Source of the DNA: Erythrobacter sp. YJ-T3-07
GTDB lineage: Bacteria > Pseudomonadota > Alphaproteobacteria > Sphingomonadales > Sphingomonadaceae
NCBI RefSeq assembly: GCF_015999305.1
Contig: NZ_JAEAGP010000001.1
Span: 496,001-560,000 of the forward strand
DNA length: 64,000 nt
Direction of reading: 5' to 3'
Below the pieces are notes generated by a model that worked only from the letters and a program-made list of their open reading frames with translations, was not told the origin of the DNA and ran no database searches. Shown in pieces: positions 4,791 through 19,112 of this stretch; position 1 is the stretch's first letter, and each line of letters starts with the position of its first letter. The position numbers and the translations under genes are program-made.

Positions 4791-6188
4791 ATGACGCGGA
4801 TGCTGGTTGTCGTCGGCGCGCTGATCGCGCTGCTGTTCCCCACCGTCGCCACCGCGCAGGAGGCCGCAGAGCCGGCCGTGCGGGTCGAGGTGCTGCACGA
4901 CGCGGGGGGATGGACCGCGACGTTCCATTTCCCGGGCGACGCGCAGGGCTGGGCCTTCCCCCGCTCCAACCGTGCGCGGCGGCAGGACACGGGCTGGCGC
5001 GAATTGAGCTGGACGGTGGAGACCGACGGCGTTTCGCTCCAGCGGATCGACGAGACCGACGTGCTGCTGGCCGATGATGGCGGGGCGCTGCCGCACGAGG
5101 TGACCGTGCGCTTCGTGCCCTTCGCCGACGATCTGATGGCCGATTACGACCCCGCCTTGCAGTTCACCGACGGCACACTGGCGCTGTTCACCGGCCACTT
5201 CTCGGGTCTCCCGTGGCTGCGCGATACGCAGGAGATGGCCGAAGATGGTCCGGTCGTGGAGATGATCTTCCGCGATGCGGACGGCCCGCTGCTGTACAAG
5301 GGCCTGCCCTACGACAGCGCGACCACGCGCGACGATTCCACCTACGTGGTCTTCGGCGATCCGCAGCCGATCAGCACCGATCACCTGACCGCAATCATCG
5401 ACCCGCAGACGCCCGCCTGGCTGCGGCGCGAGATGCTCGACTTCCTGCCGCAGACCTTCGCGATCTATGCCGACCGGCTGGGCGAGCGGGCGGGCGGCGG
5501 CAAGCCGATGGTGCTGTCCAGCTGGGCAGGGCCGACGCCGGAGCTGTACAGCCAGGGCGGAAGCGTGCTTCCGGGCCTGCTGACCGTGCGGCTGGAGGGC
5601 GAGGGACTGGTGACTGAGAGCACGCAGGCCCTGCAGGGGATGCGCTGGTTCATCGCCCACGAAGGCGCGCATTTCTGGCTCGGCCAGACGGTTGGATACG
5701 AAACCGATGCCGATGCCTGGATCATGGAGGGCGGGGCTGACCTGCTCGCCTTCCGGCTGATCGAGCGGATCGACCCCGATTACGACGCCGGCACGACGCT
5801 CGCGAACAAGTGGCAGACCTGCCTCGCGCTGTCGGTCGACAAGCCGCTGGCCGGAGCGAGCGAGCGCCGCGATTACGACGCCAATTACGCCTGCGGCACA
5901 GTGCTCGGCATGATCGCCGAAGGCGCGGCGCAGGCAAACGGCGGGCGCGACTTTTTCGATTTCATCGCCGCACTGGTCGCGGCCAACCGCGAGGATGCGG
6001 GCGGCGACGGTGTCGTCTCGTTCGACGACTGGCTCGGCCAGCTGGTCGCGGAGAGTGGCGATGAGGAGCTGGCGGCGCAGGTGAAGGCCTTCGTCTATCA
6101 GGGCACCGAGGATCCGCAGGGCGATCTGTGCGCGATGCTCGCCCGGGTGGACCGCGCAGCCCCGGGATGCGCGGCGGTGGCCGACTGA
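4791..6188 (+). CDS. Exported gluzincin (M1-like) metallopeptidase homolog
   Basis: A protein of about 465 residues with an N-terminal signal peptide ending near TVATAQ. The zinc signature is complete: HEGAH at about residue 290, followed after exactly 18 residues by Glu in WIMEGGADLL. HExxH-x18-E is the arrangement of M1-type gluzincins. The rest lacks the GAMEN motif of true aminopeptidase N, so I call it only a family relative, possibly close to M61-like proteins. Translation may start at GTG 4782, inside the end of the oligopeptidase gene, or at ATG 4791; GAGGGTGAG just upstream favours ATG 4791. Coupling to the oligopeptidase suggests joint periplasmic peptide turnover (inference). Confidence 0.75.
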   Translation: MTRMLVVVGALIALLFPTVATAQEAAEPAVRVEVLHDAGGWTATFHFPGDAQGWAFPRSNRARRQDTGWRELSWTVETDGVSLQRIDETDVLLADDGGALPHEVTVRFVPFADDLMADYDPALQFTDGTLALFTGHFSGLPWLRDTQEMAEDGPVVEMIFRDADGPLLYKGLPYDSATTRDDSTYVVFGDPQPISTDHLTAIIDPQTPAWLRREMLDFLPQTFAIYADRLGERAGGGKPMVLSSWAGPTPELYSQGGSVLPGLLTVRLEGEGLVTESTQALQGMRWFIAHEGAHFWLGQTVGYETDADAWIMEGGADLLAFRLIERIDPDYDAGTTLANKWQTCLALSVDKPLAGASERRDYDANYACGTVLGMIAEGAAQANGGRDFFDFIAALVAANREDAGGDGVVSFDDWLGQLVAESGDEELAAQVKAFVYQGTEDPQGDLCAMLARVDRAAPGCAAVAD

Positions 6189-6262
6189 GCGGTGGATCGG
6201 CGCGCGCTGCGCTTCTATGGGACCGGCTGAGACCAGAACCCTCCAGCCTTAGCGAGCCCCTC

Positions 6263-6907
6263 ATGACCCAGCGCGCCACCCCCATCCGCAACGTCGTCCT
6301 CGATGTCGGCAACGTGATTGTCCGGTGGGAGCCGCAGACGATCGTCGAGCTCGCCTTCGGTCACGACCTGCCCGCCGGGATCACCAGCCAGGACCTGTTC
6401 GGCGGGGACATCTTCCGCGCGCTCAACCGCGGCGCGATGAGCCTGACCGAAACGCAGCGCATGTTCGGCGAGCGTCACGGGTTCGACCGCAAGACCTGCG
6501 ACCGGCTGGTCTCCGCGCTGTTCGAAAGCCTCGTCCTGATCGAGGAGACGCCCAAGCTGATGCGCCGCCTCAAGGCGAGCGGATATGGCATCTATGCGAT
6601 CACCGACAATGTGCACGAGATCGTCGCCTACCTGCGCGGGCGCTACGATTTCTGGCCCTTGTTCGACGGCGCGTGCGTCTCCGCCGATCACTCCACGCTC
6701 AAACCCGATCCGCGCATGTATACCTGGCTGACCGAGACCTACGATCTGGTGCCGGAGGAATGCGTGTTCTTCGACGACCTGCCCAAGAACGTGGCGGGCG
6801 CGAAGGCGGTGGGGATGGAGAGCTTCGTCTTCACCACCACCGCGCAGGCCGAGGCGGACCTGCGCAGCATCGGCGTCGATCCGGACGCCAGGCTTGAGGC
6901 GGCGTGA
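6263..6907 (+). CDS. HAD-superfamily phosphatase, subfamily IA
   Basis: A 214-residue cytosolic HAD hydrolase. Motif I is LDVGNVIVRW, where the nucleophile is Asp14 and the second Asp of DxD is replaced by Gly-Asn, as in YihX-like alpha-glucose-1-phosphate phosphatases. The motif II Thr lies in YAITDN, the motif III Lys in TLKPDPR, and the motif IV acidic pair in FFDDLPKNVAGA. Substrate is likely a small phosphorylated metabolite but cannot be named. An open frame extends upstream to 6128 inside the previous gene; ATG 6263 fits the family N-terminus. The stop lies 10 bases before the next start, so the gene is probably cotranscribed with the thioesterase. Confidence 0.88.
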   Translation: MTQRATPIRNVVLDVGNVIVRWEPQTIVELAFGHDLPAGITSQDLFGGDIFRALNRGAMSLTETQRMFGERHGFDRKTCDRLVSALFESLVLIEETPKLMRRLKASGYGIYAITDNVHEIVAYLRGRYDFWPLFDGACVSADHSTLKPDPRMYTWLTETYDLVPEECVFFDDLPKNVAGAKAVGMESFVFTTTAQAEADLRSIGVDPDARLEAA

Positions 6908-13048: not shown

Positions 13049-13861
13049 TCAGCCAACCAGCCGCTCCTGCTGCGTGACCGTTTCGGGCCGTTGCGGCAGC
13101 AGCGTCACCAGCAGCACGATTGCTGCGGCGAGCACGGCCGATGCCGCCAGCCGGCTCAGTTCGAGCCCGCCATGCGCCACCGGCTTGTCGAGGAAATCGC
13201 CGACCACCGCACCCAGCGGGCGGGTCAGGATGAAGGCCGACCAGAACAGCAGCGGCTTGGAGATGCGGGTGGTGTAGTGCGCCAGTGCCACCAGCGCGAG
13301 CGCACCGCCGAAAATCCCCGCCGCGCCCAGATAGCCCAGCGGCCCGTCCGCGACCCAGTCGCCCAGCGCGGTGCCCAGCGTCTGCGAGAAGGTGATCGTG
13401 ATCCAGTAGAACAGCTCCGCCTCGCGGGTATGGACCGAGGCCGCCGAAATCCCGCCGAGCGTGCGATGCCAAGCGAACAGCGATACGAGCACAAGCGAGA
13501 ACAGCAGAATCGATCCGCCCGGATAGCCGATCCCCAGAGATCGCGTCGCGAAGTCGGCCAGCGTCGTGCCCGCCGTGGTCGAGGCGATGATCGTCGCCCA
13601 GTAGAGCCACGGATGGAACCGCCTGGCGCGGATCTGGAAGAAGGCGAAGATCGCCAGCGCAGCGCCGAAAATTGCAGTGCCCACGACATAGCCGTTCAGA
13701 CCCGACTGCCCGGCGCTGGCGGACGTTTCGCCCAGCCAGCTCATGCTCACGGTGTCGCCCGCGGTCTCTCCCAGAGTGGTCGCAAGGATCTTGATGATCC
13801 AGAAGCCCAGGGTGACCGCGGGCACCTTCGCCGCAGTTTCCAGCATCTCGTGTCGCGTCAT
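13049..13861 (-). CDS. COG4705/DUF347 membrane protein
   Basis: A 270-residue integral membrane protein with about eight hydrophobic segments. The repeated motif characteristic of this family is present: K..ATTLGETAGDT near the N-terminus and related TLGTALGDW and RPLGAVVGDFLDKP later, each at the end of a membrane segment. The internal repeats imply duplicated membrane units. The family is of unknown function; some relatives are annotated around manganese transport, which I would not carry over. ATG 13861 is preferred over an extension to 13924 because MTRHEMLETAAKVP is a natural start for the family. Confidence 0.8.
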   Translation of the reverse strand: MTRHEMLETAAKVPAVTLGFWIIKILATTLGETAGDTVSMSWLGETSASAGQSGLNGYVVGTAIFGAALAIFAFFQIRARRFHPWLYWATIIASTTAGTTLADFATRSLGIGYPGGSILLFSLVLVSLFAWHRTLGGISAASVHTREAELFYWITITFSQTLGTALGDWVADGPLGYLGAAGIFGGALALVALAHYTTRISKPLLFWSAFILTRPLGAVVGDFLDKPVAHGGLELSRLAASAVLAAAIVLLVTLLPQRPETVTQQERLVG

Positions 13862-13972
13862 CTCGCCATCTCCATGTGCCCGGCCTGCTTCCGAGCCGTG
13901 GCGACAGGTTGGACGGCGGGGCACCGGAAGCTATAAGCACGCGCTTATGCGGCGCAGTTTCCGCATGTGCTT

Positions 13973-15998: not shown

Positions 15999-17288
15999 CT
16001 ATCCCCCGGCTTCCACCGCTTGCGCAAACGCGGTTCGGATGTCCGTACGATCCCGCTCTGTCTGCGCGCGGCCTTCTGCGTGATCGCGTAAAGCGCGGGC
16101 GGCATCTTCGAGGTAGGATACCAGCCGCGCCGAACCACTCGTTTGGTCGACACCGCGCATCACGCGACCGTAATTGTCGATCATCCTGATTGAGACGGCG
16201 GGATAATCCGCCGCCGCCTGCCGGAACGCGGCGAGCGGATCGCCGAACAGACCGCGGAAATCCTGCCCGGGCAATTCGAAGCGGGGATGGTCCGCCGATA
16301 CCGCGACTTGGCCTGGATCGACCCAGCTGTCGCGATGGCGTAGCATGATTTCGGCCAACGCATCCGCTGCGGCGAGCGCGGTGTAGAAGTCGTTGACCGC
16401 AGGCGAGAGCGCCCGAGCCGCGACCTCGACGATCAGGCGGATCTGGAAGACCGCACCTTGCCGATCGCTTCTGAAAGGGCCGATGGGTAGCGCCTTTTTG
16501 ACCGCCTCGGGCGAGGTCAGCGCGCGCTCGAACCGGGCCAGCGGTTCACCTTCCAGCACGTGCTGCCCCGGGGCCACGCAAATCCGCACCGCGCCATCGT
16601 GCCCGGCAAGACCGTCGACCAGCAGATCCAGATCGACCCCCTCGACATAGCCGCCGCGCGGGGCCGCAACCGTCTGCGCGAAGGAGCCGGAAAACGGCGC
16701 CCGTCCGGCAATCGCGCCCACCCCGGCAATCGCATCGCCCGCCAGTGCGTCGATCGCCTTGTCGACGAACATGGTCCGCCCGAGATCGTGCAGGGCGACC
16801 GCCAGCATGGCGACATTGACCGCGAGTAGTAGCAGTGTGATCGAAAATGTCGCGAGAGGCGTCTGCGCCAAGGGCGCGTCCGCGTCGATTGCTGCCAGCG
16901 TCAGCACCGCGAATATCAGGCTGAACGACAGACCGGCGATCGATACCCGCACCAGTTTGCGGCCCAGCCAGCGGTCGATCAGGCGAACGCCCAGATTGCC
17001 TGCCGCGATGGTCAAGACGATGAGCGAAATCGAGAAATAGAGTGTGATGAAGGCCGCATCGATCCCCGCGATGACGCTGGCGACCTCTTTCGCGGTATCC
17101 GATGTGGCGACCGGAGCAAGGTCGTGCGCGATAAGCCAGCCTGACAGATAATGCCGATCGAGGGCCACCGAGGCCGCGAAGGCAAGTGGTGCGGCGATGA
17201 CGGCGCAGATCGCCAGAAACCAGTAGTTCGCAACCAGCCGGTGCGCGACCCAGCCCCACAGGCTGGTCGAAGGCCGATTCAATTGCAC
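15999..17288 (-). CDS. DUF2254 membrane protein
   Basis: A 429-residue DUF2254 protein. Four membrane segments occupy the first half (near 20-45, 75-100, 118-138 and 143-165). The soluble half carries the family motifs APRGGYVEGVDLD, AARALSPAVNDFYTA and DFRGLFGD. The gene is divergent from the rhodopsin gene, with 139 bases between the starts. Biochemical role is not established for the family. The neighbourhood may reflect a shared promoter region rather than shared function. Confidence 0.9.
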   Translation of the reverse strand: MQLNRPSTSLWGWVAHRLVANYWFLAICAVIAAPLAFAASVALDRHYLSGWLIAHDLAPVATSDTAKEVASVIAGIDAAFITLYFSISLIVLTIAAGNLGVRLIDRWLGRKLVRVSIAGLSFSLIFAVLTLAAIDADAPLAQTPLATFSITLLLLAVNVAMLAVALHDLGRTMFVDKAIDALAGDAIAGVGAIAGRAPFSGSFAQTVAAPRGGYVEGVDLDLLVDGLAGHDGAVRICVAPGQHVLEGEPLARFERALTSPEAVKKALPIGPFRSDRQGAVFQIRLIVEVAARALSPAVNDFYTALAAADALAEIMLRHRDSWVDPGQVAVSADHPRFELPGQDFRGLFGDPLAAFRQAAADYPAVSIRMIDNYGRVMRGVDQTSGSARLVSYLEDAARALRDHAEGRAQTERDRTDIRTAFAQAVEAGG

Positions 17289-17427
17289 GCCATGCCCCAG
17301 AGTCCTTTTGTCAGTTCAGGAACTTAACACCGGACCGGCAATTTGGTTGCGGCGTACCCTGTGCCGGGGGCTCTTTGGTGGAGAAGGCATTCGGTCCGTG
17401 ATTGTCATCCTTTGAAAGGCACGGATT

Positions 17428-18294
17428 ATGGTCACTTCCGAACTTGCCAGCCAATTCGGCAGCATCGAGAATGTGGTCGCGCTCAGCGTCGACCAATATA
17501 CTTCCGGTTCGCTCATCCTGATGGTGAGCTACGGAGCCCACTTCGCGTTCATCCTGTTCTTCCTGGCGATGGCCTGGCAGCTGGCGCCGCGCTATCGGAT
17601 CGTCCCGATCCTTTCGGCCGTGGTCATGGCCTCTGCCGGTCTCAGTCTGCTGCGCGAATTCATGATCTGGGAACAGAGCTACGAGCTGGTCGGCGGGGTC
17701 TATCGCCCGCTGGCCGACAATACGAGCTTCACCAACGCATTCCGGTATGGGAACTGGACGATCACGGTCCCCATCCTGCTCACCCAGCTCGCCATCGCGT
17801 TCGGTCTGCCGCGGCCCGAACTGCACAAGCGCGCCGTTCGCATGATCATCCCGGCGCTGCTGATGATCTGGACCGGGCTCTACGGCCAGTTCGGCGAAAC
17901 CGGCGACTTCCTCCGCCTGAACATCTGGGGCGTGATTTCGACGGTTTTCTTCGTCTGGCTGATCATCGAAGTGCGCGGCGTGATCGGTCGCGGGATCGCA
18001 ACCAGCCCGCCCGAGCTGAAGGGCTGGCCGAAGAACATCTGGTGGTACTTCCTGGCGACCTGGGGACTGTACCCCATCGCCTATGCGCTGCCCCAGCTTG
18101 GCTTCGACGGCGATATCGTGGTCGTCCGCCAGCTGCTGTTCTCGATCGCGGACATCAGTTCGAAGCTGCTCTACGGCCTGATCCTGAGCCGTTACGTCCT
18201 GCGGAGGAGCGCGCTGGAAGGCTACGTGCCCGCTGCAGAGGCTCTGGAAACCTCGCCGCTGGGGGCCGTGGTCGCTTCCGAGCGGGGGGACTGA
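17428..18294 (+). CDS. Microbial rhodopsin with NTQ motif, probable inward chloride pump
   Basis: A 288-residue seven-helix retinal protein. The retinal lysine is Lys246 in ADISSK, four residues after Asp242 (the BR Asp212 equivalent). Helix C reads FRYGNWTITVPILLTQ: Arg106 equals BR Arg82, and the three ion-transport positions (BR 85, 89, 96) are Asn109, Thr113 and Gln120. NTQ at this exact +4/+11 spacing is the signature of light-driven inward chloride pumps such as those of Nonlabens and Fulvimarina. Loss of the acidic proton acceptor and donor argues against a proton pump. Leu117, the spectral-tuning site, predicts green absorption. A Blh gene follows after 5 bases and would supply retinal. 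Hand counts on three lines give about 59% GC, a little below the surroundings. Fold is certain; ion specificity is inferred. Confidence 0.95.
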   Translation: MVTSELASQFGSIENVVALSVDQYTSGSLILMVSYGAHFAFILFFLAMAWQLAPRYRIVPILSAVVMASAGLSLLREFMIWEQSYELVGGVYRPLADNTSFTNAFRYGNWTITVPILLTQLAIAFGLPRPELHKRAVRMIIPALLMIWTGLYGQFGETGDFLRLNIWGVISTVFFVWLIIEVRGVIGRGIATSPPELKGWPKNIWWYFLATWGLYPIAYALPQLGFDGDIVVVRQLLFSIADISSKLLYGLILSRYVLRRSALEGYVPAAEALETSPLGAVVASERGD

Positions 18295-18299
18295 CCGGC

Positions 18300-19112
18300 T
18301 TGGCGCAGACAGCCGCCATTCCAACCAGAGGGCTCCGGCATGATGCCGGGGCCCTCGTCACCGTTCTGGCGGTCGCCGCAGCGGTGGTGGGCGAGCTTGC
18401 CGGTGGCACCGCGTCGACACTCGTCTCGCTCGGCATCTTCGCAGCGGGCGTCCTGCACGGGGCGGCCGAGGAGGACGAAGGCGGCATCTATCGCTACTCG
18501 GCTGCGCATGCCGCAGGTTATGTCGCCTTCGCCGCAGCCATTGCGGCGCTCTATCTTGCCGCACCCGTCGCTGGCCTCGTGGCGTTCCTGATTCTTTCTG
18601 CGTGGCACTTCGCCGATGGCCGCTGCGATTTCTGCCCCGCGTCGCGTTGCGCGATCGCAGGCGTGGCCATCGGGGGCAGCGCGCTGTTCATGCCGACGCA
18701 GACCGCGGCGGTGTTCGCTGCGATAACCGGGCAGCCGGTACCCGATTTCCTCGTCCAGATACTCGCCTTCGCTGGAATGGCGGGAATGGCCTGCGCCGCC
18801 TATGCGATCGTCCGTAGGCAAAGCGGCGCGGGCTATGCAATCATCGCGACGCTGGCCGCGATGCTGGTCGATCCGATGATGGCGGTCGCCCTGATTTTCT
18901 TCGTTGCGCACGCCGCGCCGGTGCAGCGCAGACAGATTGCAAGGCATGGGCTGAAGCAGGTTCTGAGTGCAAGCCTTGCGACTGGCCTGATCGCCTTGTT
19001 CGGCACGGCCGTGCTTGGCGCCCTCGCGTGGTCGGGGACGATCGCGATTCCGGTTGCCGTCGCAATCGCCTTCGGCATGGCCACTCCGCACATGCTGGCA
19101 GACGGTCTGTAG
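18300..19112 (+). CDS. blh: Brp/Blh-family beta-carotene 15,15'-dioxygenase
   Basis: A protein of about 270 residues with roughly eight membrane segments. Family motifs with conserved histidines are visible: GVLHGAAEED, LSAWHFADGRCDF, FFVAHAAPVQRRQI and FGMATPHMLADG. Blh cleaves beta-carotene into two retinal molecules at the membrane and is the standard partner of bacterial rhodopsins. No ATG is available in frame near the start, so TTG 18300 is chosen, 5 bases after the rhodopsin stop and preceded by the purine run GCGGGGGGA. The pair must be one transcript. Beta-carotene synthesis genes are not in this window. Confidence 0.92.
   Translation: MAQTAAIPTRGLRHDAGALVTVLAVAAAVVGELAGGTASTLVSLGIFAAGVLHGAAEEDEGGIYRYSAAHAAGYVAFAAAIAALYLAAPVAGLVAFLILSAWHFADGRCDFCPASRCAIAGVAIGGSALFMPTQTAAVFAAITGQPVPDFLVQILAFAGMAGMACAAYAIVRRQSGAGYAIIATLAAMLVDPMMAVALIFFVAHAAPVQRRQIARHGLKQVLSASLATGLIALFGTAVLGALAWSGTIAIPVAVAIAFGMATPHMLADGL

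Follow-up and report, generated by a model that had tools for sequence, protein, structure and literature searches.

A predicted light-driven chloride pump, a variant Blh-like retinal enzyme and a recurrent DUF2254 neighbour in an Erythrobacter genome

A rhodopsin gene directly followed by a gene for a putative retinal-forming enzyme raises the questions of which ion the rhodopsin moves, whether its neighbour provides the retinal and whether further genes belong to the same system. These questions were addressed for a stretch of 64,000 nucleotides from Erythrobacter sp. YJ-T3-07, hereafter called the window. The gene order, residues, phylogeny, co-location and purifying selection observed make it highly probable that the locus encodes a light-driven chloride pump together with its retinal enzyme, whereby the adjoining DUF2254 gene stands outside this judgement and both transport and retinal formation are predicted by analogy with characterised relatives. 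According to the mechanism proposed, Blh would cleave beta-carotene to retinal, which would bind to rhodopsin Lys246; chloride would be held between Asn109 and Thr113, next to the protonated Schiff base, as Asn109 replaces the usual Asp counter-ion, and light-driven isomerisation would move it inward. The pump so read is of a known type and the Blh is an unusual version of its kind. To our knowledge, the benefit of inward chloride pumping to marine bacteria is poorly understood, and the recurrent neighbour gene offers a handle on chloride-pump physiology as well as a first lead for DUF2254. This neighbour, the variant Blh motif and a second NTQ rhodopsin go beyond the earlier note on this DNA; no literature report was found for the DUF2254 association (the only one of the three searched by name), the variant Blh clade or a second rhodopsin copy devoid of blh.

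Residues and phylogeny of the rhodopsin

The rhodopsin gene (17428..18294, plus strand) encodes a protein of 288 amino acids, which scored 102.5 bits against Pfam Bac_rhodopsin (cut-off 24.6) and was assigned by ORF, Pfam, alignment and tree to clade A of the NTQ rhodopsins, and hence predicted to be a light-driven pump that imports chloride. With positions numbered from the first codon of the ORF and placed by alignment, the helix-C motif codons span 17752..17787 on the plus strand (Asn109 17752-17754, Thr113 17764-17766, Gln120 17785-17787), with Asn, Thr and Gln at helix-C positions 85/89/96 in BR numbering, and the codons for helix-G Asp242 (18151-18153) and the retinal-binding Lys246 (18163-18165) span 18151..18165 on the same strand. 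ORF and alignment thereby agree with the earlier note, which had described a seven-helix protein with exactly these residues. A regular expression read NTQ in 121/121 rhodopsins, i.e., in the window protein and the 120 homologues listed of 286, and within the alignment N, T, Q, D and K were found to be invariant in 36/36 and 6/6 rows of two NTQ groups, the larger of which contains four rows that repeat one genome included twice. The gene is under strong purifying selection, with a dN/dS of 0.03 against its nearest relative (L004) and of 0.08 against L005. In the L005 rhodopsin gene (6001-6864), codon 28, close to where the first helix begins, is an in-frame TAG.

The closest solved structures are those of the NM-R3 chloride pumps (E 8.6e-54), and the residues N109, T113, Q120, D242, K246 and L117 are the same in NM-R3 according to the alignments. 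In the 49-row tree the window rhodopsin was placed inside a 42-row NTQ clade (support 95/92) that includes the Fulvimarina pelagi rhodopsin (FR, locus L020), with which it shares 75% identity, and five DTE rows and one NDQ row fell outside of this clade. Alignment and tree building against NTQ, DTE and NDQ rhodopsins had been proposed by the earlier note, and its assignment to the chloride-pump type is borne out by this grouping and by the identity to FR, transport itself being predicted from sequence likeness. Since FR is a studied chloride pump, this makes the chloride-pump reading very likely, but also ordinary. FR further shares with the window the NTQ, D and K residues, a blh just downstream and a Blh within the same variant clade (see below), but its locus differs in having no DUF2254 gene within 6 kb, where the window has one. 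The likeness to NM-R3/ClR of Nonlabens marinus (PDB 6ab9, 5b2n, 5fjg) comprises the aligned NTQ, Asp, Lys and colour-position Leu; the protein is however distant from the window rhodopsin and in the tree joined the NDQ row rather than the window clade, with weak support (91/70).

In passages of earlier work FR figures as the type example of NTQ chloride pumps, its colour depending on chloride (PMC4585134), and for NM-R3 it is stated that Asn98 and Thr102 bind chloride and that most mutants at these two sites lose at least half of their pumping (PMC4999514). For a Sphingopyxis NTQ protein a table row appears to give 518 nm (PMC7979833), which would fit green absorption and Leu117. The rhodopsins of Citromicrobium bathyomarinum JL354 and JLT1363, named CbClR and CsClR in a passage of PMC4585134, belong to the same organism group as the window, if the nearest named locus is taken as a guide, and were previously listed as NTQ in parts of PMC4831467 and PMC4585134. 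A passage of PMC3587595 gives a single rhodopsin each for JL354 and F. pelagi, and JL354, likened here by description rather than by sequence, thus differs from the window's genome, which holds two.

A Blh-like gene with an altered histidine motif

Five bases downstream of the rhodopsin ORF a second ORF (18300..19112, plus strand) begins with TTG and encodes a Blh-like protein of 270 amino acids, predicted from ORF, Pfam and alignment to be a beta-carotene cleaving enzyme (PF15461); in its closest homologue (P0123) a Met start lies at the point of this TTG. The protein scored 47.4 bits against Pfam BCD/Blh (PF15461), above the cut-off of 28, but only 69.6 against TIGR03753, below the curated NCBIfam cut-off of 95.25, and was therefore filed in PF15461 and not as a standard Blh. 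With the Brp/Blh beta-carotene 15,15'-dioxygenases (TIGR03753, PF15461) it has in common the PF15461 score above cut-off and four invariant histidines: H53, H103, H204 and H264 were found in 26/26 NTQ-linked and 20/20 other Blh proteins compared. It differs from the TIGR03753 type in carrying HAxPxQ in place of the usual HSPRH. None of the 26 NTQ-linked proteins retains the second His of HxxxH, as opposed to 16 of the 20 others. HAxPxQ is the usual NTQ-linked form, its Gln at +5 occurring in 25/26 (the exception being the G047 copy) and falling into the column of the missing His in a gapped alignment; the four other Blh proteins without the second His all possess Gln at +4 (HSPIQ, HSPTQ and, twice, HALPQ), and both observations suggest that Gln may replace His. 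The ORF and the PF15461 score thus uphold the earlier note's Brp/Blh homologue five bases after the rhodopsin; of its four histidine motifs the four histidines stand, but the motifs as named concealed that HxxxH lacks its second His.

According to passages of PMC9227343, exchange of His21, His78, His188 or His192 for Ala leaves a studied Blh with less than 5% activity. As judged from their spacing, His188 and His192 of that enzyme, whose sequence lies outside the alignment, probably correspond to the HxxxH of motif 3, and the variant clade makes the need for the second His in retinal formation testable. All NTQ-linked Blh proteins, including that of Fulvimarina, and the unlinked Blh of G100 formed one side of the Blh tree (27/47 rows, 100/98). 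The tree program issued a warning here, as the branches that connect the two sides are long. L149, L150 and L151, where rhodopsin and a-type DUF2254 genes lie at another common site, have a Blh that has diverged strongly (32-34% identity over the matched part).

The suggestion that rhodopsin and Blh genes have different histories, which had been made from an estimated GC content of about 59% for the former and about 75% on one early line of the latter, was not supported. Computed values are 62.9% and 66.8% for the two genes, and the first four 60-base lines of blh range from 67 to 73%, none reaching 75%. The rhodopsin GC content is below that of blh in 9/9 pairs (the window and eight of the 19 named loci), and at third codon positions the order is reversed in 6/9, the window included (GC3 0.851 for the rhodopsin gene vs 0.764 for blh). 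As this contrast is steady across pairs, it is no mark of separate origin.

Two alternatives to a chloride pump served by its own Blh were weighed. Solved proton and sodium pumps also match the rhodopsin, which might therefore be a proton pump, a sodium pump or a sensor; these matches are, however, far weaker (e.g., 6.8e-34 for a sodium pump), Asn109 in place of Asp departs from the DTE set, Thr113 in place of Asp from the NDQ set, and the tree groups the protein with FR, leaving such a function very improbable. Somewhat more room, yet still a small share of the probability, is given to the idea that the NTQ-clade Blh is a changed or failing enzyme rather than a retinal synthase, with retinal supplied by an RPE65-family oxygenase or the environment. 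The missing second His and the low TIGR03753 score point in this direction, and the window's genome encodes one RPE65-family oxygenase, but of the 17 genomes that carry an NTQ rhodopsin only four yielded a member of this family. Against a failing enzyme stand also the four invariant histidines, the possible replacement of His by Gln, a dN/dS of 0.20 versus the nearest relative and the position of blh directly downstream of the rhodopsin gene in 19/19 named related loci, the last of which supports the retinal-enzyme gene as partner, as the earlier note had it. The preferred reading of pump and own retinal enzyme is joined by a full-length lycopene-cyclase family match of 279.9 bits in the window's genome, a family broad enough to give weaker matches in 10/14 control genomes, too.

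The divergent DUF2254 gene

On the opposite side of the rhodopsin gene, Pfam and locus comparison identified a divergently transcribed gene for a DUF2254 (PF10011) membrane protein of type a (16002..17288, minus strand; stop codon 15999-16001), which scored 185.1 bits against PF10011 (cut-off 28.8). The protein hence is a member of the family, but of the divergent sub-type a; the literature passages on the family give no function, and in a passage of PMC11184937 part of the family is predicted to be knotted. The two genes share an intergenic region of 139 bases (17289..17427), and a pattern search of this divergent promoter region yielded a conserved element (17319..17350, plus strand) of the form GGAACNNAAC-N13-TTTGGTTGC, written also GGAACTTAAC-N13-TTTGGTTGC, with one match in the window and none in 100 shuffles. 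Its strict pattern was found in 12/19 named loci, 0/7 nadA-rho-b loci and 0/9 a-b loci without rhodopsin; a looser pattern gave 15/19, 1/7 and 2/9, respectively, whereby the matches in the two a-b loci and in L018, one of the 15, are unlike the element and look like chance.

Among the matches listed in a family sample of 249 genomes, a DUF2254 gene adjoins 17/19 NTQ rhodopsins and 0/30 other rhodopsins, where adjoining denotes a match no more than 5 kb away on one contig (the closest edges of the matches are 279-393 bases apart) and the two samples are taken to comprise identical genomes, as their labels coincide. The resulting Fisher p of 2.6e-11 is not a true probability, since the genomes are related. 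Typing of 145 listed DUF2254 genes by score alone (150 matches were listed, those beyond being weaker) placed 24 near an NTQ rhodopsin, comprising 10/24 of type a and 14/121 of type b.

The arrangement most often seen (14/19 named loci) is nadA, then blh and the rhodopsin gene on the opposite strand, then a and b on the strand of nadA, gene a being broken into two frames in L013 and L021. L004 has the order of the window, with ftsK followed by blh and rhodopsin on the opposite strand and by a, and L005 and L019 contain blh, rhodopsin and a, with no nadA in the stretch compared; L011 is a 3.2-kb contig on which the rhodopsin match starts at base 245. Outside the nadA site, gene a lies divergently beside the rhodopsin gene in five flanking contexts (window/L004, L005, L019, L075 and L149/L150/L151), among which no mutual similarity was found at 1e-15 over the approximately 3-6 kb compared per side, except for one weak pair (114 bits). 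Other window neighbours of the cassette were, among the loci compared, found in L004 only; one of them, near the cassette (13052-13924, minus strand), encodes a membrane protein with four DUF347 repeats.

Whether this co-location reflects a partnership is evenly balanced against the view of a plain NTQ pump with Blh, to which DUF2254 is unrelated and merely a neighbour by descent. In favour of the latter, DUF2254 occurs in 117/249 genomes, among the matches listed mostly away from rhodopsins; a-b pairs without rhodopsin lie beside nadA in nine genomes (nadA-a-b in seven, nadA-b-a in two), a-like genes occur alone in four, and the NTQ rhodopsins of Fulvimarina (within 6 kb), G047 and G016 have no DUF2254 gene nearby. 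In G022 (L148, 3500-4684) rhodopsin matches persist at two ends only and blh lies in two pieces next to an intact a-b pair, which looks like loss in progress and, together with the a-b pairs devoid of rhodopsin, indicates that the DUF2254 genes can exist independently of the pump. Mere descent is on the other hand at odds with the five flanking contexts, and also with the finding that the window's genome has each of the two DUF2254 types, which share only about 24% identity, next to an NTQ rhodopsin. If a partnership of pump and DUF2254 is assumed, DUF2254a might, as a guess, take part in the pump's physiology, i.e., in the handling of chloride or turgor.

The second rhodopsin and the phototrophic setting

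The second NTQ rhodopsin of the window's genome (G000:C1:2381626-2382432, minus strand; L001, L082) is 67% identical to the first and resides between nadA and a b-type DUF2254 gene, with no Blh beside it in the locus neighbourhood. A nadA-linked copy was present in 6/6 genus genomes listed with rhodopsins (members without rhodopsin may be unlisted), these copies grouping as a single long-branched clade (100/100 in the 49-row tree), and a window-type rhodopsin was found in addition only in the window's genome and in G095. All six copies without blh retain N, T, Q, D and K, and dN/dS among them ranges from 0.06 to 0.14 (10 pairs from five of the six genomes). The nadA locus is probably the ancestral site, from which blh and DUF2254a have disappeared; the window locus would then be a moved or acquired copy accompanied by exactly these two genes, direction and source likewise being presumptive. 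No PF15461 match was found in the other four of the six genus genomes (G006, G153, G200 and G236), which are 99-100% complete, and an RPE65-family oxygenase was found only in G236 among them. Near relatives of this kind, in which the NTQ rhodopsin is intact but no Blh was found, lend themselves to the search for a retinal source not yet known, such as a passage of PMC7734400 reports for Aurantimicrobium minutum.

Photo_RC genes, four in number, form two distant pairs in the window's genome (G000:C1:1419323-1420995 and 2688558-2690222), and two pairs also occur in 4/5 other genus genomes, so that chloride pumping would coexist with bacteriochlorophyll photosystems. Tentatively, and with more doubt than confidence, the sphingomonad NTQ pump may be envisaged as belonging to a light-driven chloride system not described before, consisting of the pump, a chloride-pump-specific Gln-type retinal dioxygenase and DUF2254 a/b partners that would sense or release the imported ion. 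Within the genus this system would be split into two loci, with one pump working with DUF2254b, in four genomes without a known Blh-type retinal enzyme and, in three of these, with two bacteriochlorophyll reaction-centre sets alongside. A passage of PMC12654162 describes two photosynthesis clusters in Citromicrobium JL354, and the named locus nearest to the window (99%) is that of a Citromicrobium genome bin. In five of the six nadA-linked genus copies, Phe was observed at the place of His38.
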